Shown here piece by piece: positions 51,911-64,000 of a stretch of 64,000 nucleotides of DNA. The translations under genes and the position numbers were made by a program. The DNA is taken from NCBI GenBank assembly GCA_028287305.1, contig JAQBPX010000027.1, positions 1 to 64,000 of the forward strand, given 5' to 3'. The notes below the pieces were generated by a model, which was given only the letters and a program-made list of their open reading frames with translations, did no database searches and was not told the DNA's origin. Origin of the DNA: Gemmatimonadota bacterium. GTDB lineage: Bacteria > Gemmatimonadota > Gemmatimonadetes > Gemmatimonadales > Gemmatimonadaceae. Every line of letters begins with the position of its first letter. Within the stretch, counting starts at the first letter, position 1.

Positions 51911-52935
51911 CCGCCGACCTGGATGACGCGACGCTGGTGGAACCCGACGACGAGGGTGGCGATGGGCTGACGCACGTCATCGCGGCCAGCGGCGACGGCC
52001 AGCGACTCGACCTGCTCGTCTCGACCTCGCTCGACATCAGCCGCAACAACGCCGCGACGCTCATCGCGAACGGCAACGTGCTGGTGCAGGGGAAGCGCGA
52101 GAAGGCGTCGTACAAGGCGCGCGCCGGCGAGGAAGTGGTGGTCACGCTGCCGCCGCCCGCCGCGCACGAAGTGATCGCCGAGCAGATCCCGCTCGACATC
52201 GTGTTCGAGGATGACGACCTGCTGGTGGTGAACAAGCCGGCGGGCATGGTGGTGCATCCCGCGCCGGGGAACTGGACGGGGACGCTCGTGAACGCGCTCA
52301 AGGGGCGGGGCGGCCCGCTGGCCACCACGAGCGAGGGGCGCGAGGGAATCGTGCATCGCCTCGACAAGGAGACGAGTGGGCTGCTGATCGTGGCGAAGAG
52401 CGATCGCGCGCATCGCGTGCTCGGCGCGGCGATCGCCGACCGTCGCATCACGCGGCGCTACGCGGCGCTCACCTGGGGCCACGTGACCGAGGATCGCTTC
52501 ACGATCGAGAAGCCGATCGCGCGGGACCCGCGAGACCGGAAGCGGATGGCGGTCGTCGCTACCGGGCGGGCGGCGCGCACGGACTTCACGCGCCTCGCGC
52601 GCCTGGACCCGGCCGACCTGCTGCGCGCGCACCTGCACACGGGACGGACGCACCAGATTCGCGTGCACCTCTCGAGCGTGGGGCACCCGGTGGTGGGAGA
52701 CGATACGTATGGTGGCGGGGGCGGACGGAAGCTGGTGGGGCTGCCGCCGCGGCGGCACTTTCTCCACGCGGCCTGGCTCAAGTTCAGGCACCCAGTGTCG
52801 GGGGCGGAGCTCGACCTGCGCTCGCCGCTGCCGCCGGAGCTGCATCGCGGGCTGACCGTGATGCTCGGACCGGACGCCCCGGCGGAGGGGGTGGACCTGC
52901 TGGAGCACTTCGGATTCTATGATCTCGAGGATTGA
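51907..52935 (+). CDS. rluD: RluD-family 23S rRNA pseudouridine synthase
   Basis: 342 residues from GTG overlapping the lspA stop. N-terminal S4 domain (QRLDLLVSTSLDISRNNAATLIANGNVLV), then the catalytic motif HRLDKETSGLL with the nucleophilic aspartate, and LHTGRTHQIRVHLSSVGHPVVGD. Modifies uridines in helix 69 region of 23S rRNA in model species. Its end overlaps cheW by 17 bases, so the Che array is directly fused to the housekeeping run. Confidence 0.94.
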   Translation: MTADLDDATLVEPDDEGGDGLTHVIAASGDGQRLDLLVSTSLDISRNNAATLIANGNVLVQGKREKASYKARAGEEVVVTLPPPAAHEVIAEQIPLDIVFEDDDLLVVNKPAGMVVHPAPGNWTGTLVNALKGRGGPLATTSEGREGIVHRLDKETSGLLIVAKSDRAHRVLGAAIADRRITRRYAALTWGHVTEDRFTIEKPIARDPRDRKRMAVVATGRAARTDFTRLARLDPADLLRAHLHTGRTHQIRVHLSSVGHPVVGDDTYGGGGGRKLVGLPPRRHFLHAAWLKFRHPVSGAELDLRSPLPPELHRGLTVMLGPDAPAEGVDLLEHFGFYDLED

Positions 52936-53377
52936 GCCCAGCACCATCGGCGACCATTCGCCGACCGGTCCCGAGGAGCGCACGCTGCTCTTCCGGGCTG
53001 GGGAGCGGGTGTACGGGTGCGAGATCAGCGTGGTGAAGGAGATCATCCCGTGGCGCCGCCCGACCCGGATTCCGGGGTCACCGGAGTGGGTTCAGGGGAT
53101 CATTAACCTTCGTGGAACGATTTTGACGGTTTTCGACCTCGGCCAAAGGATTACGCCGTCGCGGCCGCAGGCCCGCGACGGCTCCATCGTGATGATGGAG
53201 GTGGGGACACGCTGCGTGGGGATCGCGGTGGATGCGGTGATGGACGTGCGGCAGCTGGTGCCCGAACGGGCGGATGCCCAGGGGGAGGGGGGGCTGGTGC
53301 GGGGCGTGGGACATCTCGACCGGACGGTCGTCATACTGATTGACGTCCGGGCGCTGGTGAGCGACGTCCTGCTTTAA
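52919..53377 (+). CDS. cheW: CheW-like adaptor
   Basis: 152 residues. CheW fold: LLFRAGERVYGCEISVVKEIIPWRRPTRIPGSPEWVQGIINLRGTILTVFDL and later VMDVRQLVPER. The NLRG motif is intact. Normally links receptors to CheA. First gene of the signalling array, starting inside rluD. Confidence 0.94.
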   Translation: MISRIEPSTIGDHSPTGPEERTLLFRAGERVYGCEISVVKEIIPWRRPTRIPGSPEWVQGIINLRGTILTVFDLGQRITPSRPQARDGSIVMMEVGTRCVGIAVDAVMDVRQLVPERADAQGEGGLVRGVGHLDRTVVILIDVRALVSDVLL

Positions 53378-53395: not shown

Positions 53396-53758
53396 TTGAG
53401 CCACACGGTACTGATCTGCGACGACGCCATCTTCATGCGAACGATGGTCGGGGACATCCTCACGCAGGCGGGTTTCGAGATCGTCGGTGAAGCGGAGACG
53501 GGGCTGCAGGCCGTCGAGAAGTACAAGCTCCTCCGCCCGGACCTCGTGACGATGGACATCGTGATGCCCGACATGGGCGGCATCGATGCCGTTCGCGAGA
53601 TCACGAAGTTCGACCCGCAGGCGCGCGTGCTGATGTGCAGCGCGATGGGCCAGCAGGCGCTCGTGGTCGAGGCGATCCAGGCGGGAGCCAAGGACTTCGT
53701 CGTCAAGCCGTTCCAGCCGAGCCGCGTATTGGAGGCCGTGCAGCGGGTCCTCGGCTAG
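53396..53758 (+). CDS. cheY: CheY-like single-domain response regulator
   Basis: 120 residues from TTG, with GGGGGAT before it. Acidic pair CDD, phospho-aspartate in VTMDIVMPDMGG, switch MCSAMGQ and lysine VVKPF. A stand-alone receiver. It is between cheW and cheA; target (motor, MglA system or AAA+ protein) unknown. Confidence 0.95.
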   Translation: MSHTVLICDDAIFMRTMVGDILTQAGFEIVGEAETGLQAVEKYKLLRPDLVTMDIVMPDMGGIDAVREITKFDPQARVLMCSAMGQQALVVEAIQAGAKDFVVKPFQPSRVLEAVQRVLG

Positions 53759-53763
53759 GACGC

Positions 53764-55785
53764 GTGGACACTTCCCAGTACGCTGAGCTCTTCCTCACGG
53801 AGAGCCGCGAGCACGTCTCGTCCATCAACCACTGGCTGCTCGAGCTCGAGCGGGGCACGGGTGGCGACGAGCCGGTGAGCGCGGTGTTCCGCGCGGTGCA
53901 CACGATCAAGGGCATGAGCGCGACGATGGGCTATGCCCTGGTGGCGGAGCTCTCGCACGAGATCGAGTCCATGCTCGATCGGGTGCGCGCGGGAAGCCTG
54001 GTGATCGACGCGAACGTGATGGACCTGCTCTTTCGCGGCGCCGACGTGCTCGAGCGCGCGATCGAGGCGGCCGTGGCGGGGAAGGAGCGCGACATCTCCG
54101 CCGACGAGCTGCTGGCGGCGCTGCGAACCGCGGCGCTGGTGAAGCAGGCGCCGCGCGCCTCCGCGCCGCTCCTCGTGGCCACGCCGGCGACCACGTCTGC
54201 CGATGGCGAGGCGTGGACGGTGGCGGCGCCGATCGGGGCGGGACTGCTCGTGCGCATCCGCCTCGCGAAGGAGACTCCGCTGCGCGGGGTGCGTGCCTTC
54301 CTCGTGGTGCAGGCGGCGAAGCGGCTCGGCGAGGTGACCGCCACGGAGCCCACGCTTTCCGCGCTGCAGGGCGACGACTTCGCCCATGACTTCGCGCTGC
54401 GCCTGGTGACCAGCGCGCCGATCGCGGAGATCGAGGGGCTGCTGAAGGGCGCCGGGGACGTGGTGGCGGTGCACGTGGGCGAGGACGCCTCCTCGCTCGG
54501 CAACTCCTCCGCCATCGCGCTGCCGCAGCTGGGTGCCGCGAACTCCGCCGACGCGGCGATGCGCACGTCGGGCTTCCTCACGGCGGCCGAGGTCGGCAAG
54601 GCTGAGCAGCAGGCCGCGGATGACCCGGCGCTCCGGCAGCAGCGTCACGTTCGCATCGACCTGCGGCGCCTGGATGCGCTGATGAACCTGATCGGCGAGC
54701 TGGTAATCGCGCGCGGCCGGCTGCAGTCCATCGCGGGCACCCTGGGCGATGCGCCGCTGCAGGAGACCATGACGCTGGCGAGCCGGCTGATCGGCGACCT
54801 GCGGGACGAGATCATGTCGAGCCGCATGGTGCCGGTCTGGCAGGTGTTCGACCGCTTTCCGCGCCTGGTGCGCGATGCGGCGCGGTCGCTGGGCAAGCAG
54901 GTGGATTTCACGATCGAGGGCAAGGAGATCGAGCTCGATCGCTCCATGCTGGACGAGATCGGTGAGCCCATCGTGCACCTGCTGCGCAACGCGGTGGACC
55001 ACGGCATCGAGGGCCCGGAGGCGCGCGCCGCGACCGGGAAGCCGGCTGCGGGGCGCCTGCGACTGTCGGCGCTGCGCGACCGCTCCGCCGTGGTGATTCG
55101 CGTGAGTGACGATGGCAAGGGAATCGACCGCCAGCGGGTGCTCACGAAGGCGAAGGCAAGCGGGCTCGTGGATGCCACGCGCACCGACCTCACGGACGAG
55201 GAGCTGGTGCGGCTGATCTCGCGCTCGGGATTTTCGACCGCCGACGCGGTCACCGGGATCTCCGGGCGCGGCGTGGGCGTGGACGCGGTGTTCTCGCGCG
55301 TGCGCTCGCTCGGCGGCGCGGTGGACATCAAGACCAGCCCCGGGCAGGGCACCACCGTCACCATGCGCCTCCCCCTCACGCTGGCCATCCTGCGCGCCCT
55401 CCTCGCGCAGGTGGACGACGAGATCTACGCGATACCGCTTACGCACGTGAGCGAGACGGTGGAGCTTCATGCGGACGTGCAGCGCACGCTGAAGGGCCGC
55501 GAGGTCCTCCTGCTGCGCGACGACGTGCTGCCGCTGCTCCGGCTGCGCACGCTGGTCGGGCTTCCGCCGCAGCCGGTGGACAGCGAGCGACTGGAGCAGG
55601 TGGTGATCGTGGAAGTGGCCGACCGCCGCGCCGGGCTGGTGGTGGACGACCTGATCGGGCAGCAGGAAATCGTGGTGAAGCAGTATGACGCGGTGCGCGA
55701 TGCGGCCTCCGTGTTCAGCGGTGCGACGATTCTCGGCGACGGCAACCCGGCGCTGATCCTCGACGTGAGCAGCCTACCTACCTGA
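53764..55785 (+). CDS. cheA: CheA histidine kinase
   Basis: 673 residues from GTG at 53764. HPt domain with the phosphorylated histidine in RAVHTIKGMSATMG (H46). A diverged P2-like region follows at about residues 135-270. Dimerisation and kinase domain: RRLDALMNLIGELVIARGRL, N-box LLRNAVDHGIE, G1 DDGKGID, G2 GRGVGVDAVF, GQGTTVTMRLP. C-terminal CheW-like domain. Complete for signalling. No CheB or CheR follows. Confidence 0.96.
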   Translation: MDTSQYAELFLTESREHVSSINHWLLELERGTGGDEPVSAVFRAVHTIKGMSATMGYALVAELSHEIESMLDRVRAGSLVIDANVMDLLFRGADVLERAIEAAVAGKERDISADELLAALRTAALVKQAPRASAPLLVATPATTSADGEAWTVAAPIGAGLLVRIRLAKETPLRGVRAFLVVQAAKRLGEVTATEPTLSALQGDDFAHDFALRLVTSAPIAEIEGLLKGAGDVVAVHVGEDASSLGNSSAIALPQLGAANSADAAMRTSGFLTAAEVGKAEQQAADDPALRQQRHVRIDLRRLDALMNLIGELVIARGRLQSIAGTLGDAPLQETMTLASRLIGDLRDEIMSSRMVPVWQVFDRFPRLVRDAARSLGKQVDFTIEGKEIELDRSMLDEIGEPIVHLLRNAVDHGIEGPEARAATGKPAAGRLRLSALRDRSAVVIRVSDDGKGIDRQRVLTKAKASGLVDATRTDLTDEELVRLISRSGFSTADAVTGISGRGVGVDAVFSRVRSLGGAVDIKTSPGQGTTVTMRLPLTLAILRALLAQVDDEIYAIPLTHVSETVELHADVQRTLKGREVLLLRDDVLPLLRLRTLVGLPPQPVDSERLEQVVIVEVADRRAGLVVDDLIGQQEIVVKQYDAVRDAASVFSGATILGDGNPALILDVSSLPT

Positions 55786-55796
55786 CGGAGTTAGAC

Positions 55797-56417
55797 ATGG
55801 ACGACATTCGCGCCCTCAAGCCGAACCAGCTCGACGCACTGCGCGAGGTGGCCAACATCGGCGCCGGGCACGCGGCTACGGCGCTTTCGCAGATGATCGG
55901 CGGCACGATCATGATCAGCGTGCCCCGCATCAATGTGCAGGCGCTGGAGGACGTCTCGCCGATGGTGGCGAGTCCCGAGGAGCCGGTGGCCGCAGTGCTG
56001 CTGCACATGTTCGGCGACCTGACGGGGCGCACGCTGCTCGTGTTCCCGCGCGACTCCGCCATCCGGCTGGCCGAGATGATGCTGCGGCGGCCGCAGGGAA
56101 GCTCGAAGGAGCTCGGCGAACTGGAACAGTCGGCGATCAAGGAGGCGGGCAACATCCTGAGCAGCGCATACATGAATGCGCTGTCCGACTTCATGGGGAT
56201 GATGCTGCTGCCGTCGCCGCCGAGCCTCGCCATCGATATGTCAGCCGCCGTGTTGTCCTCTGCCTATCTGCAGTTCACCTCCGACCGGGACTTCGTGTTC
56301 TGCGTGGAGAGTGAGTTCATCCTGCAGGAATCCGAGGAGCGGTTGCGCGGCCTGTTCCTGCTGCTGCCGGACCCGGAGTCGCTGCAGGCCATGCTGCGCG
56401 CCGTCCGGGTTTCCTGA
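55797..56417 (+). CDS. cheC: CheC-family CheY-P phosphatase
   Basis: 206 residues. Two phosphatase active-site repeats, LREVANIGAGHAATAL and IKEAGNILSSAYMNAL, each with the E-x-x-N pattern. Dephosphorylates CheY-P in other species. No CheD partner is visible. Start supported by GGAG about 10 bases upstream. Confidence 0.94.
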   Translation: MDDIRALKPNQLDALREVANIGAGHAATALSQMIGGTIMISVPRINVQALEDVSPMVASPEEPVAAVLLHMFGDLTGRTLLVFPRDSAIRLAEMMLRRPQGSSKELGELEQSAIKEAGNILSSAYMNALSDFMGMMLLPSPPSLAIDMSAAVLSSAYLQFTSDRDFVFCVESEFILQESEERLRGLFLLLPDPESLQAMLRAVRVS

Positions 56418-56426
56418 TCGACCACG

Positions 56427-59162
56427 ATGTCGGCATCGCTCGGTTCCGAGCGGGACCGTGAGGTCCTGCGCTCCTTCGCCCGACGGATCGATCCGTCGGA
56501 CGCCGGGGCGCACAACAACCTGGGCGTCCTCTATTACAACAAGGGGCTGCACGAGGAGGCGGTCGCCGCGTTCATGCGCGCGCTCGAGCTCGACCCGCGC
56601 ATGCAGGTCGCGCAGCGCAACCTCGAGATCGCCTACTTCAACACCGGCTACTACGATCGCCGCGTGGCCGAGCTGCGGGAGCGGATCCGCGCGCATCCCG
56701 CCGATCGCGACACGCGCTGGGAGCTGGCGCGCACCTACGCGCTGCTCGAGCAGCGGCCGCAGGCCATCGAGGAGTTCCAGGCGCTGCTCCGCTATCACCC
56801 GCACGACATCGCGTCGCTCGTGCAGCTGGGGCTCGCGGAAAAGGCGGAGGGCAACGTGGAGGGAGCCACGCGCTGGCTCCAGCAGGCGATGTCGCTCGAT
56901 CCCGAGAGCTCGCTGGTGCACTTCTACGTGGGCGAGATCGCCTACAACCGCGGCCTGAACGACGAGGCGCTGACCGCGCTCGAGCGCGCGCTGGCGCTGA
57001 ACCCCGACAACCACGACGCGCTCTACCTGATGGGATTCGTGCTCGGCGACATGGGCCGCCACGAGCAGGCGCGCGACGTGACCAAGCGCGCGATGAAGCT
57101 CAACCCGGCGCTGTCGCGCGCGCAGGCGAACCTCTCGATCGACCAGAACAAGCCGGAGAAGTACGAGGCGCTCACGGCGAGCCGCACCGACCGCCGTTCC
57201 TCGCAGCAGCAGATGGAGGTGAGCGGCGACGGGCAGCTGGCGCGCTACAACCTGGGCCTCGCCTTCCGCCAGAAGGGCTACTACGTGGAGGCGCTCCGCG
57301 AGTACCTGCTGGCGCTCGACCGCGGCGAGGATCGCGACCTGGTGCTGCAGGCCATGGCCGAGGTGCACCTGCTGCGCCGCGCGCTGCCCGCGGCGCGCGA
57401 GCTGTACGACCAGCTGCTGGAGCGGCGCCCGGACAGCCCCAAGCTCTGGAACGAGCGCGGCGTGGTGCTGCACCAGGAAGGGCGCATCGTGGATGCCATC
57501 GAGAGCTACGGGCGCGCGGTCGCGAGTGAGGGCGCGTATGCCCTGGCGCACAACAACCTGGCCGTCGCGCGCTACCACGTGGGTGACGCGGAGGGCGCGC
57601 TCGACGCGTTCCGTCGCGCGCTCGAGGCGCGCCCCAGCTTTTCCAAGGCGCGCCTGAACCTCGCGCTGCTGCTCTACCAGGCGAAGCGCCTGCCGCTCGC
57701 CATCGAGGCCTATCGCCAGGTGCTCGCGAGCGAGGCCGAGCACCCGGTGGCGTGGAATGGCGTGGGAGTGGTGCTCGCCGACATGCGCCAGTTCGAGGAT
57801 GCGCGCAACGCCTTCGCGCGCGCCATCCAGGCGCGCCCCGCATACGCCGAGGCGCACTACAACCTGAGCTTCACCCTGTCGAACCTCGGCGACTTCGAGG
57901 GCGCGCTGCGCGAGACCAAGCAGGCGCTGGAGCTCGACCCGTACTACGTGGCGCAGAAGTTCGAGCTCGCGATCGACCTCGAGTACGAGGATCCGGACCT
58001 CTCCATCCAGCCGGACCTCGAGGGCACGAAGCGCGTGGACGAGAACGTGCCGGACTTCTCGTTCAACGCGGAGACGCTCGACGCGCTGTTCGCCACGCTC
58101 GCGCCGGCCCCAGCCCCGGCGCCCGCGGCGATGCCGAGTGGCGAGGCCGACCCGTATGCCACGGCGCGCGACTTCCTGACTGCCGGGCTCTTCGACCGGG
58201 CGTCCGCCGAAGTGAAACGGCTGCTCGCGCGCGGCGCCTCGAAGGGCGAGGGCTATGCGCTGCTCGGCGATGCATTCGCGAAGCAGGGACTGCATGGCGA
58301 GGCGCTCGAGCGCTACCGCGAGGCGCGTCGTGAGCAGAACGACCTGGTGCCGGCGATGATGGGCGAGGCATGGTCGCTGCTCCGCCTGGGCAACGCTGCG
58401 GAAGCACGGCTCGTGGCCGAGGCGCTGCTGGGCCGCCAGTCGCAGGACATCGAGGTGCTGATGCTCGCGGCCGCCACGCGCGCCGAGGCCGGGGATCCGG
58501 CCGCGGCCCTCGCGACGCTCGACGTCGCGCGCCGCGTCGCGCCGATGCGCGCCGACGTGCACCAGCAGATCGGCGAGATCGCGCGCTCGGTGGGTGACCT
58601 CGAGGGCGCGATGGGCGCCTATCGTCATGCGCTGCAGCTCGACGGCGGATTCGCGGTGGTGCGCTATCGCCTGGCCACGCTGCACCTGGACAAGCAGCAG
58701 CCGCGCGAGGCGGAGGTGGAGCTGCTCGCGGCACTCGATGCGGTGCCGACGTACGCCGAGGCCACCCTGGCGCTGGCGCGCCTGCGCCGGGAGCACGGTC
58801 GCGCGGAGGAGGCGCTGCCACTGCTGATCGAGCTGCTGCAGCGCGATCCCTATCACTTCGACGCGCTCATCGCGCTCGGCGAGACGCTGCTGGCCCTGGG
58901 TCGCAGGCAGGATGCCATCACCGCGTTCACGCGCGTGCTGCGCTTCGACCCGGAGCACGTGGGCGCGCTGTTCCACGAGGGGCTGCTGCTCTCGGAGCAG
59001 CACCGGTTCGCCGAGGCGACCGCGCGCTGGCAGAAGGTGATCGACCTGGCGTCGTCGGGCGACTACGCGCGGCGCGCGCGACGCGAGATGCGCACGGCGA
59101 CGGACCTGCAGAAGGTGTTCGGCGTGCGGCCGCAGCGGGCAATGCTCGTCCAGGAGCCCTGA
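56427..59162 (+). CDS. Large TPR scaffold protein
   Basis: 911 residues of TPR-type helical repeats (for example AHNNLGVLYYNKGLHEEAV, LVHFYVGEIAYNRGLNDEA, ARYNLGLAFRQKGYYVEAL). A first array covers about residues 25-520. A short acidic part and a Pro/Ala linker (LAPAPAPAPAAMPSGEADPY, about 555-575) follow, then a second array to about 890. No enzymatic domain or membrane segment. It should be a protein-protein interaction platform. Located directly after cheC and before other TPR proteins of the array. Confidence 0.85.
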   Translation: MSASLGSERDREVLRSFARRIDPSDAGAHNNLGVLYYNKGLHEEAVAAFMRALELDPRMQVAQRNLEIAYFNTGYYDRRVAELRERIRAHPADRDTRWELARTYALLEQRPQAIEEFQALLRYHPHDIASLVQLGLAEKAEGNVEGATRWLQQAMSLDPESSLVHFYVGEIAYNRGLNDEALTALERALALNPDNHDALYLMGFVLGDMGRHEQARDVTKRAMKLNPALSRAQANLSIDQNKPEKYEALTASRTDRRSSQQQMEVSGDGQLARYNLGLAFRQKGYYVEALREYLLALDRGEDRDLVLQAMAEVHLLRRALPAARELYDQLLERRPDSPKLWNERGVVLHQEGRIVDAIESYGRAVASEGAYALAHNNLAVARYHVGDAEGALDAFRRALEARPSFSKARLNLALLLYQAKRLPLAIEAYRQVLASEAEHPVAWNGVGVVLADMRQFEDARNAFARAIQARPAYAEAHYNLSFTLSNLGDFEGALRETKQALELDPYYVAQKFELAIDLEYEDPDLSIQPDLEGTKRVDENVPDFSFNAETLDALFATLAPAPAPAPAAMPSGEADPYATARDFLTAGLFDRASAEVKRLLARGASKGEGYALLGDAFAKQGLHGEALERYREARREQNDLVPAMMGEAWSLLRLGNAAEARLVAEALLGRQSQDIEVLMLAAATRAEAGDPAAALATLDVARRVAPMRADVHQQIGEIARSVGDLEGAMGAYRHALQLDGGFAVVRYRLATLHLDKQQPREAEVELLAALDAVPTYAEATLALARLRREHGRAEEALPLLIELLQRDPYHFDALIALGETLLALGRRQDAITAFTRVLRFDPEHVGALFHEGLLLSEQHRFAEATARWQKVIDLASSGDYARRARREMRTATDLQKVFGVRPQRAMLVQEP

Positions 59163-59165
59163 GCC

Positions 59166-60302
59166 ATGGCGATCGAGGGACCGCTTCGCGAGCTCGGCAT
59201 CCACGACGTGTTCCAGCTGCTCGACCTGAGCCGGAAGACGGGGACGCTGCGCGTGAGCTCCGAGCTGCGCGACGACGCTGGCGTGGTGCACTTCGAGTCG
59301 GGGCGCGTGGTGCACGCCAGCATTCGCAGCAAGCCGGCGGGCATCGCGGAGACGCTGCGCACCGCGGGCAAGCTGAGCGAGGAGGACGTGGCACGGGTGA
59401 AGGCCGCGCAGCAGGAGCGCGGCGGGGAAGTGGCGGACCTGCTGGTGGAGCTGGGCGCGCTCACGCAGCGGGAGCTCGAGCGGCAGCTTCGCCTGCAGAT
59501 CGAGGGCGTGGTGTTCGAGCTGATGTCGTGGAGCGAGGGCTTCTTCTCCTTCGAGGAGGGGAGCATCGCGGACCTGCCGCGCGACGCGCGCATCAAGGTG
59601 TCCACCGAATCGCTGCTCATGGAGGGCGCGCGCCGCATCGACGAGTGGTCGCGCATCGCGGACAAGGTGCCGAGCCTCGGCGTGATCCCGTCGCTGGCGC
59701 CGGTGAGCGACGATCACGAGACACAGCTCGACCTGCTGCCGCACGAGTGGGAGGTGCTGACGATGATCGATGCGCAGCGCGACCTGCGCGCGATCTCCGC
59801 CGCGCTCGGGCGCGGGGAATTCGAGATCGCGAAGGTGGCGTACGGGCTCGTGACGACCGGGGTCATCACGCTGCGCCAGCCGGAGCGCGCCAGCGCCTCG
59901 CTCGCGGCGCCGGACGCGGCGCAGGTGCACGTGGCCGCAGGCGCCTACGCACTCGAGGAAGGCAACGCCGAGGAGGCGCTGGGCCTCGCGCGCAAGGCGC
60001 TGGCGCGCGACGCGGAGCGCACGGATGCGCGCCTGCTGGCGGCGCGTGCGCTGTCGAGGCTCGGTCGCACCGGTGAAGCGGTGGACGAGTTGCGGCGGGC
60101 CGTGCGCACCGACCCGATCACGCCCGAGGTGCACCTCGAGCTTGGCTTCTCCGCAATTCGCGTGGGCGACTTCGCCACCGCGCGCGGGAGCCTGGAGCAC
60201 TTCCTGCGCATTGCGCCCTCATCCATGGAAGCGCCGCGAGTGGAGGCGACGCTCGAGGCGGTCGCCCGCCTGGCGCACCTGCTGGAGGCGCACGGTGGCT
60301 GA
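59166..60302 (+). CDS. DUF4388 (PatA-like) protein with C-terminal TPRs
   Basis: 378 residues. N-terminal DUF4388 (IEGPLRELGIHDVFQLLDLSRKTGTLRV, residues about 3-115), a domain also found in PatA-type regulators and myxobacterial gliding proteins. A middle helical segment follows, with TPR-like repeats at about 250-370 (AYALEEGNAEEALGLARKAL, LGFSAIRVGDFATARGSLE). Unknown biochemical role; likely couples to the GTPase or AAA+ partners. Overlaps the next gene by 8 bases. Confidence 0.85.
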   Translation: MAIEGPLRELGIHDVFQLLDLSRKTGTLRVSSELRDDAGVVHFESGRVVHASIRSKPAGIAETLRTAGKLSEEDVARVKAAQQERGGEVADLLVELGALTQRELERQLRLQIEGVVFELMSWSEGFFSFEEGSIADLPRDARIKVSTESLLMEGARRIDEWSRIADKVPSLGVIPSLAPVSDDHETQLDLLPHEWEVLTMIDAQRDLRAISAALGRGEFEIAKVAYGLVTTGVITLRQPERASASLAAPDAAQVHVAAGAYALEEGNAEEALGLARKALARDAERTDARLLAARALSRLGRTGEAVDELRRAVRTDPITPEVHLELGFSAIRVGDFATARGSLEHFLRIAPSSMEAPRVEATLEAVARLAHLLEAHGG

Positions 60303-61110
60303 CGACATCACGCGCTGGAGTGACGAGCTGGCCCGCGACCCGGCGAACCTCGTCTTCCTCATGCTCGGGGAGGCGCTGCGCAAGCAGAACCAGCTCGGCG
60401 TGGCGCACCGCGTGGCGGTGAAGGGACTCGAGCGCCATCCGCACCATGCCGACGCGCATGACCTGCTTGCGCGCATCCTCGTGGACCTCGGTGACTTCGA
60501 CCAGGCGTTCGACGAGTGGGACATGACCCTCCGCCTCGCGCCCGGACACGTGGGCGCGCTGAAGGGAATGGGCTTCGTGCGCTTCAAGCAGGGCCGCCTG
60601 CCCGAGGCCGAGGAATACCTCCGCCGCGCCTCGGGTGATGCGACCATGCCGGACGTCGGCGCGTCGCAGGCCTTGAGGACGGTCCGGCAATCCGGCGCCT
60701 TCGTCGCGCCCGTGCCCGCGCCCGTGCCGGTTCCCGAGGAGGAGCCCGCGACGCTCTTCGCGCGCGTGCTGACCGGCGCCGGACAGACCGCGCTCCTCAT
60801 GGATGCGAGCGGGCTGGTGATGGCCGGCAGCTACCTGCTCGCGGATGGCAGCGACGTCGCGAGCGAGGTGGGCGCGGCGCTGAGCGGCGTGTCCGACGAG
60901 GCCGATCGCGCTACGCGCCACCTCAACCTGGGCGAGTGGACGGCGATCCTGGTGGAGACGGAGGCCGCGGTAATCGCGATGGCCCCCGCCGCCGAGGATG
61001 GCCTCCTGCTCCTGGCGGCCTCGCGCGCCACGCCTCTTGGCCTGCTCAAGCGGCTCCTGGGGCGCTGCCGGGACACGGCGAGGGAATGGATGGAGGGCCG
61101 CCCCTCATGA
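60295..61110 (+). CDS. TPR-roadblock fusion protein
   Basis: 271 residues from GTG inside the end of the previous gene. N-terminal TPR-like half (ARDPANLVFLMLGEALRKQN, AHDLLARILVDLGDFDQAF), Pro/Val linker (APVPAPVPVPEEEP, about 138-150), then a roadblock/LC7 domain (LMDASGLVMAGSYLLADGSD ... LNLGEWTAILVETEAAVIAMAP). Roadblock domains dimerise and bind Ras-like GTPases such as MglA. The fusion could bridge the TPR scaffold to the GTPase. Confidence 0.82.
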   Translation: MADDITRWSDELARDPANLVFLMLGEALRKQNQLGVAHRVAVKGLERHPHHADAHDLLARILVDLGDFDQAFDEWDMTLRLAPGHVGALKGMGFVRFKQGRLPEAEEYLRRASGDATMPDVGASQALRTVRQSGAFVAPVPAPVPVPEEEPATLFARVLTGAGQTALLMDASGLVMAGSYLLADGSDVASEVGAALSGVSDEADRATRHLNLGEWTAILVETEAAVIAMAPAAEDGLLLLAASRATPLGLLKRLLGRCRDTAREWMEGRPS

Positions 61111-61469
61111 CCGGGCCGCGCACCCCGACGCCCTTCGGCAGCCTGCTCGACACGCTCACGCGCCAGCGCGGCGTGAAGGCCGGCATGGTCGTGAGCGAGA
61201 GCGACGGCATCATCATCGACTCCAACATGCAGATCGGCGTGCACGGGGATCGGGTCGCCGCGCTGGCTGCGTCGCTGTATCGCAAGGCCCGGATGTCGGC
61301 GACCGCCGCTGGGCTGGGCACCGCGACCTTCTTCCAGCTGGAAGCGGAACGGGGCCGCCTCTGCGCCGCGGGACGCAATGACCTGGTGGTGGTGGTGGTC
61401 ACCGAGGCGCAGGCGAACGTGGGGCTCATCCGGATGGAGCTGCTGCGCGCGGCGGAGGGCTTCGCATGA
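61107..61469 (+). CDS. Roadblock/LC7-domain protein
   Basis: 120 residues; single roadblock domain (GVKAGMVVSESDGIIIDSNMQIGVHGDRVAALAASL ... AERGRLCAAGRNDLVVVVVTEAQANVGLIRMEL). Candidate GTPase-activating partner of MglA, equivalent to MglB. ATGA overlap with both neighbours. Confidence 0.88.
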   Translation: MTGPRTPTPFGSLLDTLTRQRGVKAGMVVSESDGIIIDSNMQIGVHGDRVAALAASLYRKARMSATAAGLGTATFFQLEAERGRLCAAGRNDLVVVVVTEAQANVGLIRMELLRAAEGFA

Positions 61470-61939
61470 TCACGCGCGTGGTGGAGGGGTGGGTCGAGGA
61501 GCCCCTCAAGCGCTTCGTGGACGACGCGCGCGTGGTCCTGGCGCTCATGCTGCACCCCAGCGGGCAGGTGATGGCGCAGCACGGCTTCGCGCGGGCGATG
61601 GACGTGATGTCGGCCTGCGCGCTGGCCGCGGCGATTCATGCCTCGGCATCCGAGCTGGGGCGCCAGCTGGACGGGAAGCCGTTCAGCGGCATCCACCAGG
61701 CTGGAAAGGACCGCCAACTTTTCCTGGCGGAAGCGGAAACGGCGCAGGGGTCGTACATTTTCGTGACGGTGTTCGACGCGGAAAGCTCCCTGGGCCTGGT
61801 CAGGCTCTATTTCGAGGAGCTTCGCGCCGGCCTCGCCTCCGCCGCACCCGCCCTGGAAGAATCGTCCGAGCCCATCCTCGCCGAGCATTTCGAGAGCGAG
61901 CTGAATCGCAACCTGGCTGCCCTGTTCGGGAGAGCATGA
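61466..61939 (+). CDS. Roadblock-like protein with C-terminal extension
   Basis: 157 residues. Roadblock-like core (ALMLHPSGQVMAQHGFARAMDVMSACALAAAIHASASELGRQL ... SYIFVTVFDAESSLGLVRLYFEEL) and an acidic helical tail (LEESSEPILAEHFESELNRNLAALFGRA). It immediately precedes and overlaps mglA. The order roadblock then MglA is the same as mglB-mglA in myxobacteria, so this may be the functional MglB; its sequence is more diverged than the previous one. Confidence 0.78.
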   Translation: MITRVVEGWVEEPLKRFVDDARVVLALMLHPSGQVMAQHGFARAMDVMSACALAAAIHASASELGRQLDGKPFSGIHQAGKDRQLFLAEAETAQGSYIFVTVFDAESSLGLVRLYFEELRAGLASAAPALEESSEPILAEHFESELNRNLAALFGRA

Positions 61940-62535
61940 GTCTCGTCAACTACGCCACACGCGAGATCACCTGCAAGATCGTCTATTACGGACCGGGCCG
62001 GTCCGGCAAGACGACCAACCTGCACTACATCTATGGACAGGTGCCGGAGGATCGAAAGGGCAAGATGGTGTCGCTCGCGACGCAGACCGACCGCACGCTC
62101 TTCTTCGACTTCCTGCCGCTCGACCTGGGCTCGATCTCCGGCTTCACCACCAAGTTCCAGCTCTACACCGTGCCGGGGCAGGTCTACTACCAGACCACGC
62201 GCAAGCTCGTGCTGCAGGGCGCGGACGGCGTGGTCTTCGTGGCCGACAGCCAGGCGCGCCAGCTCGACGAGAACATCGAGAGCTTCCAGGACCTGCACGC
62301 GAACCTCGCCGACCAGGGCGTGGATGCGCGCGCGATCCCGCTCGTGATCCAGTACAACAAGCAGGACCTGCCGAAGGACCTCATCCTCGGTGAGCCCGAG
62401 CTGCGCGACGCGATCAACTTCCGCGGCGTGCCCGACTTCAGCGCCGACGCGCTGCATGGTCCCGGCGTGTTCGAGACCCTGCGCGGCATCTCCGAACTGG
62501 TCCTCAAGCGACTCAGCACGCCGGGGGCGAAGTAG
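61936..62535 (+). CDS. mglA: MglA-family small GTPase
   Basis: 199 residues. G1 GPGRSGKTT (G21 at the same position as in Myxococcus MglA), R53 in QTDRTLFFDFLPLDLG, Q82 in TVPGQVYY and NKQD (G4). These are the MglA-specific P-loop, arginine finger and catalytic glutamine. MglA-GTP marks the leading cell pole in gliding and twitching bacteria. Here it stands behind three roadblock proteins and in front of the double AAA+ gene. Confidence 0.95.
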   Translation: MSLVNYATREITCKIVYYGPGRSGKTTNLHYIYGQVPEDRKGKMVSLATQTDRTLFFDFLPLDLGSISGFTTKFQLYTVPGQVYYQTTRKLVLQGADGVVFVADSQARQLDENIESFQDLHANLADQGVDARAIPLVIQYNKQDLPKDLILGEPELRDAINFRGVPDFSADALHGPGVFETLRGISELVLKRLSTPGAK

Positions 62536-62537
62536 TC

Positions 62538-64000
62538 GTGCAGGTCGATGCCCGGCACCGCTTCGACAACTTCATCGTGGGCTCGGCCAACCGCCTGGCG
62601 GTCGCCGCGGCGCGCGCGGTCGCGGAGTCGCCCGGCAGCACGTACAACCCGCTCTTCGTCTACAGCAGCTCGGGGCTCGGCAAGACGCACCTGATGGGCG
62701 CGATCGGCAACCTGGTGCAGCAGCGCTCGCGCGAGGCCGTGATCGAGTACGTGACGCTCGACGACTTCGTGGAGCAGCTGCACGCGGCCGTGGCGGCGGG
62801 GGAGAGCGAGCGCTTCAAGCAGCGCTACCAGCGCATCGACCTGTTGATGGTGGACGACGTCCAGTTCCTCACGGGCCGGCGCGAGACGCAGTCCGAGATG
62901 CTGCGCCTGCTCAACGCCATGCAGGGCTCGGGCAACCAGATCGTGATGGCGAGCGACCGGCCGCCGTCCGACATTTCGGACGTGGACGAGCGCCTGATCA
63001 CGCGGCTGTCGGGCGGGCTGATCGTGGACATCGCGTCGCCGGACTTCGAGACGCGCGTGGCCATCCTGCGCGCCAAGAGCGACGAGCGCGGCATCCGCTT
63101 CCGCCCCGGCGTGATCGAGGAGCTCGGGCGCCTGGAGTTCACCAACGTCCGCGAGCTGCAGGGCGCCCTCAACCGCCTCATCGCGTTCCAGACGCTGGGC
63201 GGCGACCAGCTGCAGGCGGAAGACGTGCACACCGTGCTCGGCGACCTTCCCGAGGCGCAGCGTGCCTCGGCGGGAGGAGCGAAGCCCGCGGCGCTGGCTG
63301 GCGCGCCGGGCGGCCCGCTCGACTTCCAGAGCTTCCTCTCCGACATCGCCACCGCGGTCACCACGCACGTGGAGAGCTGGAAGCTGCGCGTCGCGGAAGC
63401 GATCGCGTACTGGAACGGCGAGGGCTACCGCACGGGCGCGCTCGACCGGCTGCTCGAGGAGACCACGCAGCCGCCACACTACGAGGCGGTGCTGCGCGGG
63501 TACGCGGCATTCGTCGAGCGATTGAAGGCGCTCGAGAGCCAGGCCACCGGCATCGACTCGGCGCTCGGCGCGAACGAGGCGTTCCGCGACCCCGAGCGGC
63601 TGCAGGAGGCGGAGGCGGTGGTGCAGCGCGCGTTGAGCGGCGCCACCCCGCCACCGGGCCCGTCGAGTGCATTCACGCGCGCCGGCTACGAAGTGGGACA
63701 CAGCAACCAGCTGGCGGTGCGAGCGGCCGACGCCGTGGTGGAGACTCCCGGGCAGAAGTACAACCCGCTGTTCGTGCACGGCCCGAGCGGCGTGGGCAAG
63801 ACGCACCTGCTCCATGCGCTGGCGAATGAGCTCGTGCGCGCGCTCGGCGGCAACGTGGTGGTGGCCTGCGTGGGCGCGCAGCAGTTCATGGACGAATTGA
63901 TCGCGGCCATCCAGGAAGACACCGTGGATCGCTGGCGCCAGCGCTATCGCCGCATCGAGGGGCTGGTGATCGACGACATCCAGTTCGTCGCGAGCAAGGA
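62538..64000 (+). CDS. Tandem DnaA-type AAA+ ATPase, 3' end outside the window
   Basis: Open from GTG at 62538 (2 bases after the mglA stop) to the window edge; 487 residues seen. First module: FDNFIVGSANRL, Walker A SSSGLGKT (43-50), Walker B LLMVDDVQF (D106-D107), sensor-1 region NQIVMASDRPP, DnaA box-VII-like ERLITRLSGG (R156) and sensor-2 NVRELQGALNRL (R205). A helical linker of about 140 residues follows. A second module begins near residue 378: YEVGHSNQL, Walker A GPSGVGKT (415-422), Walker B LVIDDIQF. DnaA domain I is absent; whether a DNA-binding domain IV ends the protein cannot be seen. It resembles DnaA/Hda ATPases but is duplicated. Confidence 0.9.
   Translation, partial: MQVDARHRFDNFIVGSANRLAVAAARAVAESPGSTYNPLFVYSSSGLGKTHLMGAIGNLVQQRSREAVIEYVTLDDFVEQLHAAVAAGESERFKQRYQRIDLLMVDDVQFLTGRRETQSEMLRLLNAMQGSGNQIVMASDRPPSDISDVDERLITRLSGGLIVDIASPDFETRVAILRAKSDERGIRFRPGVIEELGRLEFTNVRELQGALNRLIAFQTLGGDQLQAEDVHTVLGDLPEAQRASAGGAKPAALAGAPGGPLDFQSFLSDIATAVTTHVESWKLRVAEAIAYWNGEGYRTGALDRLLEETTQPPHYEAVLRGYAAFVERLKALESQATGIDSALGANEAFRDPERLQEAEAVVQRALSGATPPPGPSSAFTRAGYEVGHSNQLAVRAADAVVETPGQKYNPLFVHGPSGVGKTHLLHALANELVRALGGNVVVACVGAQQFMDELIAAIQEDTVDRWRQRYRRIEGLVIDDIQFVASK

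Follow-up and report, generated by a model that had tools for sequence, protein, structure and literature searches.

Why should a gene directly behind mglA, in a run of chemotaxis, TPR and roadblock genes, encode two ATPase modules of the DnaA type, when the DnaA ATPase is known so far for the start of replication and its control? The question arose from an earlier note on the 64,000-nucleotide stretch of DNA analysed here (the window), which had read the gene as one polypeptide with two DnaA-type AAA+ modules and without the N-terminal DnaA domain, and had suggested that it might form a self-contained DnaA-like dimer or filament used for polar positioning, or might couple DNA state to polarity. 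We find that many soil Gemmatimonadota carry such a tandem DnaA ATPase, without the DNA-box-binding part, inside a chemotaxis and cell-polarity operon, and we ask here what its partners and constraints say about its role.

The description of the polypeptide proved right. The gene has a GTG start at 62538, two bases past the end of mglA at 62535; its reading frame is still open at the end of the window (64000) and continues on the contig to a stop at 64,493, encoding 651 amino acids in an unbroken frame with no frameshift between the modules. Two DnaA domain-III AAA+ modules, M1 and M2, flank a helical domain of about 115 amino acids, Pfam Bac_DnaA matches each half on its own, and the protein begins at the AAA+ domain. 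The genes and segments concerned are the following.

52919..53377, + strand: CheW (assigned by its translation and its conserved place in the cluster, not by a family scan)
53396..53758, + strand: CheY (assigned by its translation and its conserved place in the cluster, not by a family scan)
53770..55785, + strand: CheA, start approximate (assigned by its translation and its conserved place in the cluster, not by a family scan)
55797..56417, + strand: CheC-like protein (family scan)
56427..59162, + strand: 911-aa TPR protein (family scan)
59166..60302, + strand: PATAN (DUF4388) and TPR protein, upstream copy (Pfam DUF4388, 1.9e-29)
60298..61110, + strand: TPR and roadblock protein (family scan)
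61107..61469, + strand: roadblock/LC7 protein, MglB-like (Pfam Robl_LC7)
61466..61939, + strand: conserved 157-aa protein (Robl2), directly before mglA (no Pfam match)
61936..62535, + strand: mglA, Ras-like GTPase (Arf and Gtr1_RagA matches; neighbours and relatives)
62538..64000, on to contig 64,493, + strand: tandem DnaA-type AAA+ gene (open reading frame, 651 aa)
62538..63245, + strand: AAA+ module M1, residues 1-236 (Pfam Bac_DnaA, 2e-55; motif table)
63303..63653, + strand: helical linker, residues 256-372 (AF2 model)
63654..64000, + strand: first half of AAA+ module M2 (Pfam Bac_DnaA, 1.9e-53, full protein)
contig 64,495-66,111: next gene, PATAN-TPR protein DUF4388b (Pfam DUF4388 and MshEN motifs)

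Walker A, Walker B, arginine finger and sensor 2 are all present in both modules. In M1 they lie at K49, D106/D107, R156 and R205; the window itself covers K421 (Walker A), I455 (initiator-specific motif, ISM) and D479/D480 (Walker B) of M2, and the box VII and sensor-2 arginines of this module (RLRSRF, SVREI), together with a conserved C-terminal tail, are encoded past its end. The AF2 model of the protein (pLDDT 85) has B. subtilis DnaA domain III (8bv3) as its best fold match, with a TM score of 0.95 by target length, and the modelled modules are 34-40% identical to solved DnaA domain III; its pTM of 0.46 leaves the arrangement of M1 relative to M2 unreliable. Dozens of relatives carry an intact long frame with this layout; the gene is therefore neither a chance frame nor an assembly fusion, and a frameshift or joining of two genes was excluded on that ground. 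Rfam gave no match within the window.

The earlier note had placed the gene at the end of the Che/TPR/roadblock array, and this did not hold: on its 3' side follow the PATAN-TPR gene and then cheR, cheD and cheB, which were identified by their translations and conserved places in the cluster; beyond these come genes for an AAA ATPase, a pair of CheW-like proteins, a TPR protein and a peptidase. MglA, roadblock proteins and the Che core stand in conserved order, as in a polarity-type cluster, and the Che/TPR/roadblock/MglA gene order is conserved through most of the bacterial order. The downstream ATPase is of the AAA_22 (ExeA-like) type, lies at about 68,495-69,280 of the contig between cheB and the two cheW-like genes, and has a tblastn match in only a few relatives.

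The tandem proteins of Gemmatimonadota form a family that is both ancient and conserved. A profile of the linker detects 176 of 298 genomes of the phylum, the full-length protein is present in most of 40 near relatives at 44-72% identity, and the order M1, linker, M2 and tail is found in 65 of 91 non-redundant loci. Named relatives belong to Gemmatimonadaceae or Gemmatimonadota at large; a scan of contigs with the full protein returned the complete architecture only in Gemmatimonadota, along with four plain DnaA-type matches in other phyla, and no copy of the linker was found on plasmids. In a tree of the modules with DnaA, Hda and DnaC, M2 forms one clade with support of 100/100, separate from DnaA and from M1, M1 is placed less securely with respect to DnaA, and E. 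coli Hda and DnaC fall on very long branches outside both modules.

How closely is this family bound to MglA? A survey of neighbourhoods in Gemmatimonadota showed that in 50 of 67 loci mglA directly precedes it, frequently at a distance of only a few bases, and that mglA lies farther upstream in two further loci (family f6). The MglA of the cluster is moreover a distinct copy, better conserved than a second MglA paralogue. Both points speak for a tandem protein that is primarily a direct effector or regulator of the adjacent MglA, for instance a GEF or GAP helper. Against this view, mglA is missing from the locus in family f5, which has the tandem form, and in G003, G047, G049 and G076, all of which keep the PATAN-TPR neighbour; the f5 genomes tested yielded MglA-like genes solely at other sites in the genome. 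We therefore regard a primarily MglA-directed role as unlikely, and an obligate MglA partner as the defining link was rejected for the same absences. What survives of the proposed tie to mglA is a widely conserved adjacency that does not define the family. The second paralogue in the genome under study lies outside the cluster (L179, G000:C12:311365-311820) and is about 60% identical; most tested genomes without a cluster mglA still carry an MglA of this second type.

Judged by gene neighbourhood, the tightest partner of the tandem gene is the PATAN-TPR gene, and not MglA. DUF4388b starts at, or close past, the stop of the tandem slot in 64 of 65 evaluable loci (contig ends truncate two others, L154 and L186); at L171, the one exception, the frame is interrupted behind the linker and DUF4388b lies farther along. 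Stop and start often overlap (TGATGG), and this neighbour is kept even in loci without mglA or che genes. The protein encoded by DUF4388b carries two 24-residue motifs of the form RLGxxL...Q, RIGDTLMKHGVITAEQVQAAIDQQ and RLGTLLVELGFITQNQLREYVQVQ, which are separated by a short spacer of six residues, as is characteristic of MshEN; the pattern is that of the solved MshEN structure with c-di-GMP, whose spacer has five residues (PMC5013675). The NCBIfam model of an MshE-related c-di-GMP domain (NF053729) scores 51.6 bits on the protein against a cut-off of 38, and both motifs are present in 52 of 64 DUF4388b proteins. DUF4388b is thus a putative c-di-GMP receptor of the MshEN type. The motifs are inserted in the PATAN domain, a region that Pfam labels only as DUF4388.

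The slot before DUF4388b is not always filled by two ATPases. The linker is modelled by AF2 with a pLDDT of about 90-97 over its core, has no clear match in the PDB (no Foldseek match had an E value below 5, and a second structure comparison gave Z values of at most 4.1, too low to be informative) and is specific to this family of tandem proteins. Relatives hold in the same position M1 with linker and tail (G016 and families f9 and f6, the module being degenerate in f6), a degenerate M1 with linker and tail (G015), M1 and tail with the linker gone (G076), linker and tail alone (G014), or stubs of 67-73 amino acids (G004, G006, G007, G047, whose start is uncertain, G049 and G081). The stubs retain an EFxxF helix, which corresponds by position and sequence to the first helix of the linker, and the tail ...WPxxxxRxIEExR; a profile of the tail gives one strong match per positive genome (E 1e-16 to 6.5e-5), the next best being at about 0.05. 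In the tree of the downstream proteins the reduced forms of family f1 nest inside the full-length family and several separate reductions are needed, which indicates repeated loss of the ATPases from a protein that retained its ends. The ATPases are dispensable, their slot being occupied in relatives by one module, by the linker only or by a stub of about 70 residues. Because the slot persists without both modules, polar positioning by a duplicated ATPase, as the earlier note had it, is not the core function.

Several minor observations belong to these reduced forms. In the single-module loci of G016:C26 and G015:C2 (L065, L066) the remaining module is degenerate at box VII. Stubs stand before DUF4388b at L181 (G049), L174 and L184 (G004, G081) and L183 (G047), and the two that were scanned, from G004 and G007, gave no Pfam match, so that such genes are easily overlooked in annotation. 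The MshEN insert is lost in five of six stub loci compared, the G007 locus retaining it. An independent co-loss of ATPases and insert was considered and rejected: the tree places the loss of the insert in a single event, with G007 as an exception, so the co-loss is not independent evidence and serves as a lead only.

Such repeated reduction to a stub raises the question of whether the AAA+ modules are near-neutral cargo, in a slot that would matter only as a short peptide or through translational coupling to the PATAN-TPR gene. The overlap of stop and start agrees with this, as does a GAGGAG before the next start: the codons of the final EE of the tail are GAGGAG and can double as the Shine-Dalgarno sequence of DUF4388b. 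As this stretch may be a ribosome-binding site, conservation of the final tail residues is confounded as evidence on the protein. The tail W and P are conserved, with P codons that vary synonymously, and these positions are better evidence for protein function than the terminal EE; they argue against a purely translational role. The modules themselves appear to be under selection, with a complete catalytic set in at least one of them and the arginine finger of M2 each kept in 66 of 67 proteins. Taking both sides together, we hold it rather improbable that the ATPases are mere passengers.

Examination of the motifs across the 67 two-module proteins, which are related sequences and not independent events, shows how the two modules differ. 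With a complete set defined as the Walker A lysine, Walker B DD/DE, both box VII arginines and the sensor-2 arginine, both modules are complete in 36 of the 67, only M1 in 21, only M2 in nine, and neither in one (L185, the sole two-module protein without any intact module). All 21 proteins whose M2 ATP site is broken retain the arginine finger of this module (R285 in E. coli, R264 in B. subtilis), and in family f5, where M2 has neither Walker A nor Walker B, both box VII arginines are kept in 7 of 7. At the base-capture residue of DnaA (B. subtilis I190, E. coli V211) M2 has V or I in 64 of 67 proteins and M1 in 0 of 67, and R202 is kept in M2 in 69 of 69. By their motif content, then, the two modules have specialised, M1 retaining the ATPase motifs and M2 the arginine finger and the residue for contact with ssDNA. 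Genus g12 reverses the pattern of the other lineages, M1 being without arginine finger and sensor 2 and M2 complete (broken M1 at L063, L101, L102, L104, L106, L107 and L109). The specialisation of the modules fits the idea of a self-contained pair, one that is asymmetric.

The residues kept in M2 bear on whether the pair binds ssDNA or origin DNA, or interferes with DnaA in the manner of Hda, and so links the state of the chromosome to polarity. Residues I190/V211 and R202 are tied in DnaA to nucleobase capture, in which adjacent ISMs jointly capture the bases, and ISM residues serve protein contacts as well (PMC10721633). The conservation of both positions in M2 is what one would expect of DNA contact; capture needs adjacent ISMs, though, and the I190 residue is gone from M1 in all 67 proteins. 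Domain IV is absent, every segment of the protein is net acidic, the neighbourhood consists entirely of signalling genes, and the cut-offs of the Hda, DnaC and DnaI models are not reached (TIGR03420, the Hda equivalog, 171.8 bits against 194.8; PRK07952, PRK08939 and IS21_help_AAA, of the DnaC/DnaI/IstB type, far under theirs). With M1 lacking the I190 residue and with acidic segments throughout, DNA contact through M2 is rated low; a coupling of DNA state to polarity found no direct support beyond the retained contact residue, and we consider it improbable.

That the protein is simply a second replication initiator, as its score of 519 bits with the DnaA equivalog TIGR00362 (cut-off 343.9) might suggest, is hardly credible, given that this score exceeds the cut-off despite the missing domain IV because those of two domains add up, that neither Bac_DnaA_N (domain I) nor Bac_DnaA_C (domain IV) matches any segment at E 0.1, that the modules form lineages of their own in the tree, and that the canonical dnaA stands beside dnaN on another contig of the same genome, which holds exactly three Bac_DnaA domains in all, whereas the tandem gene sits in the Che/MglA operon without a neighbourhood of the dnaA-dnaN type. 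A second dnaA was accordingly ruled out. A tryptophan after the RF motif, tried as a marker against DnaA, was dropped; there is a glycine at this position in Aquifex DnaA too.

The reading that we prefer is that of an asymmetric DnaA-type AAA+ ATP switch mounted on an adaptor that docks on the PATAN-MshEN-TPR protein, within a Che/MglA pathway that probably acts on type IV pili, and to this model as a whole we would give an even chance. We infer the docking, ATPase activity and output of the protein along the following lines. The EFxxF helix and the tail would dock on the co-translated PATAN-TPR protein; the arginine finger of M2 would complete the ATP site of M1, either in the same chain or between chains joined head to tail in an oligomer; and binding and hydrolysis of ATP would switch the shape or assembly of the adaptor. 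This switch would tune the response of the PATAN-MshEN-TPR protein to signals from c-di-GMP, Che and MglA-GTP, through which that protein would set the activity or the pole of type IV pili. In lineages without the ATPases the stub would stay as an unregulated adaptor.

As for the output, the genome under study has a PilB above the cut-off of TIGR02538 and no flagellin was found in it. In Myxococcus, MglA and the TPR protein SgmX localise PilB (PMC11580455), and in cyanobacteria there is a connection between PATAN regulators and PilB1 (PMC7690835). Type IV pili are, from a PilB without flagellin and from these precedents, the most likely output by analogy; PilB-like ATPases occur in genomes both with and without the tandem gene, and the pilus is for this reason a guess.

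Placing this protein among known systems requires comparing both its ATPases and its pathway. With DnaA domain III it shares the AAA+ fold, the motifs and the arginine finger, and in M2 the ISM contact residues; it differs in having two modules that have diverged in motif content, an additional helical domain and tail, no domains I and IV, and a gene in a Che/MglA/PATAN operon. Hda, DnaC, DnaI and IstB are likewise DnaA-type AAA+ proteins without domain IV, but they stand alone and belong to other operons, and their equivalog cut-offs exclude the tandem protein. The Frz/MglA-MglB/SgmX system of Myxococcus xanthus also brings together Che-like proteins, MglA, roadblock proteins and TPR effectors; no DnaA-type AAA+ component of it is described in the literature searched, and the Gemmatimonadota cluster adds the PATAN-MshEN-TPR proteins. 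Cyanobacterial PixE, PixG and LsiR likewise place a PATAN domain in a chemotaxis-like pathway of type IV pili, and PixE is reported to bind PilB1 (PMC7690835); there PATAN is joined to CheY, whereas here it is fused to TPRs, holds an MshEN-like insert and is paired with a DnaA-type AAA+ protein.

The literature searched, which was limited to freely accessible papers, describes neither a tandem DnaA-type protein nor a DnaA-type protein beside mglA or in a Che/MglA cluster, in agreement with the view of the earlier note that no described pathway joins a duplicated DnaA-like ATPase to MglA. The parts belong to kinds already described; what is new, to our knowledge, is how they are combined and how labour is divided. 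If the model is correct, the ATPase of DnaA has been captured by a polarity and chemosensory pathway and split into two complementary halves, and this would be the first non-replicative signalling role of a DnaA-type module that we know of. The broader proposal, that the pair, with one half for ATP binding and one supplying the arginine finger, was recruited from replication as an ATP-driven switch on a surface-motility pathway of c-di-GMP, chemosensory and MglA components, we put forward tentatively, as possible. The family forms a natural series, from two predicted working ATPases to none within one operon slot, and this makes the contribution of the ATPase directly testable. A further observation concerns annotation: as a protein without domain IV that passes the DnaA equivalog cut-off, the tandem protein will likely be named replication initiator DnaA by automatic procedures.
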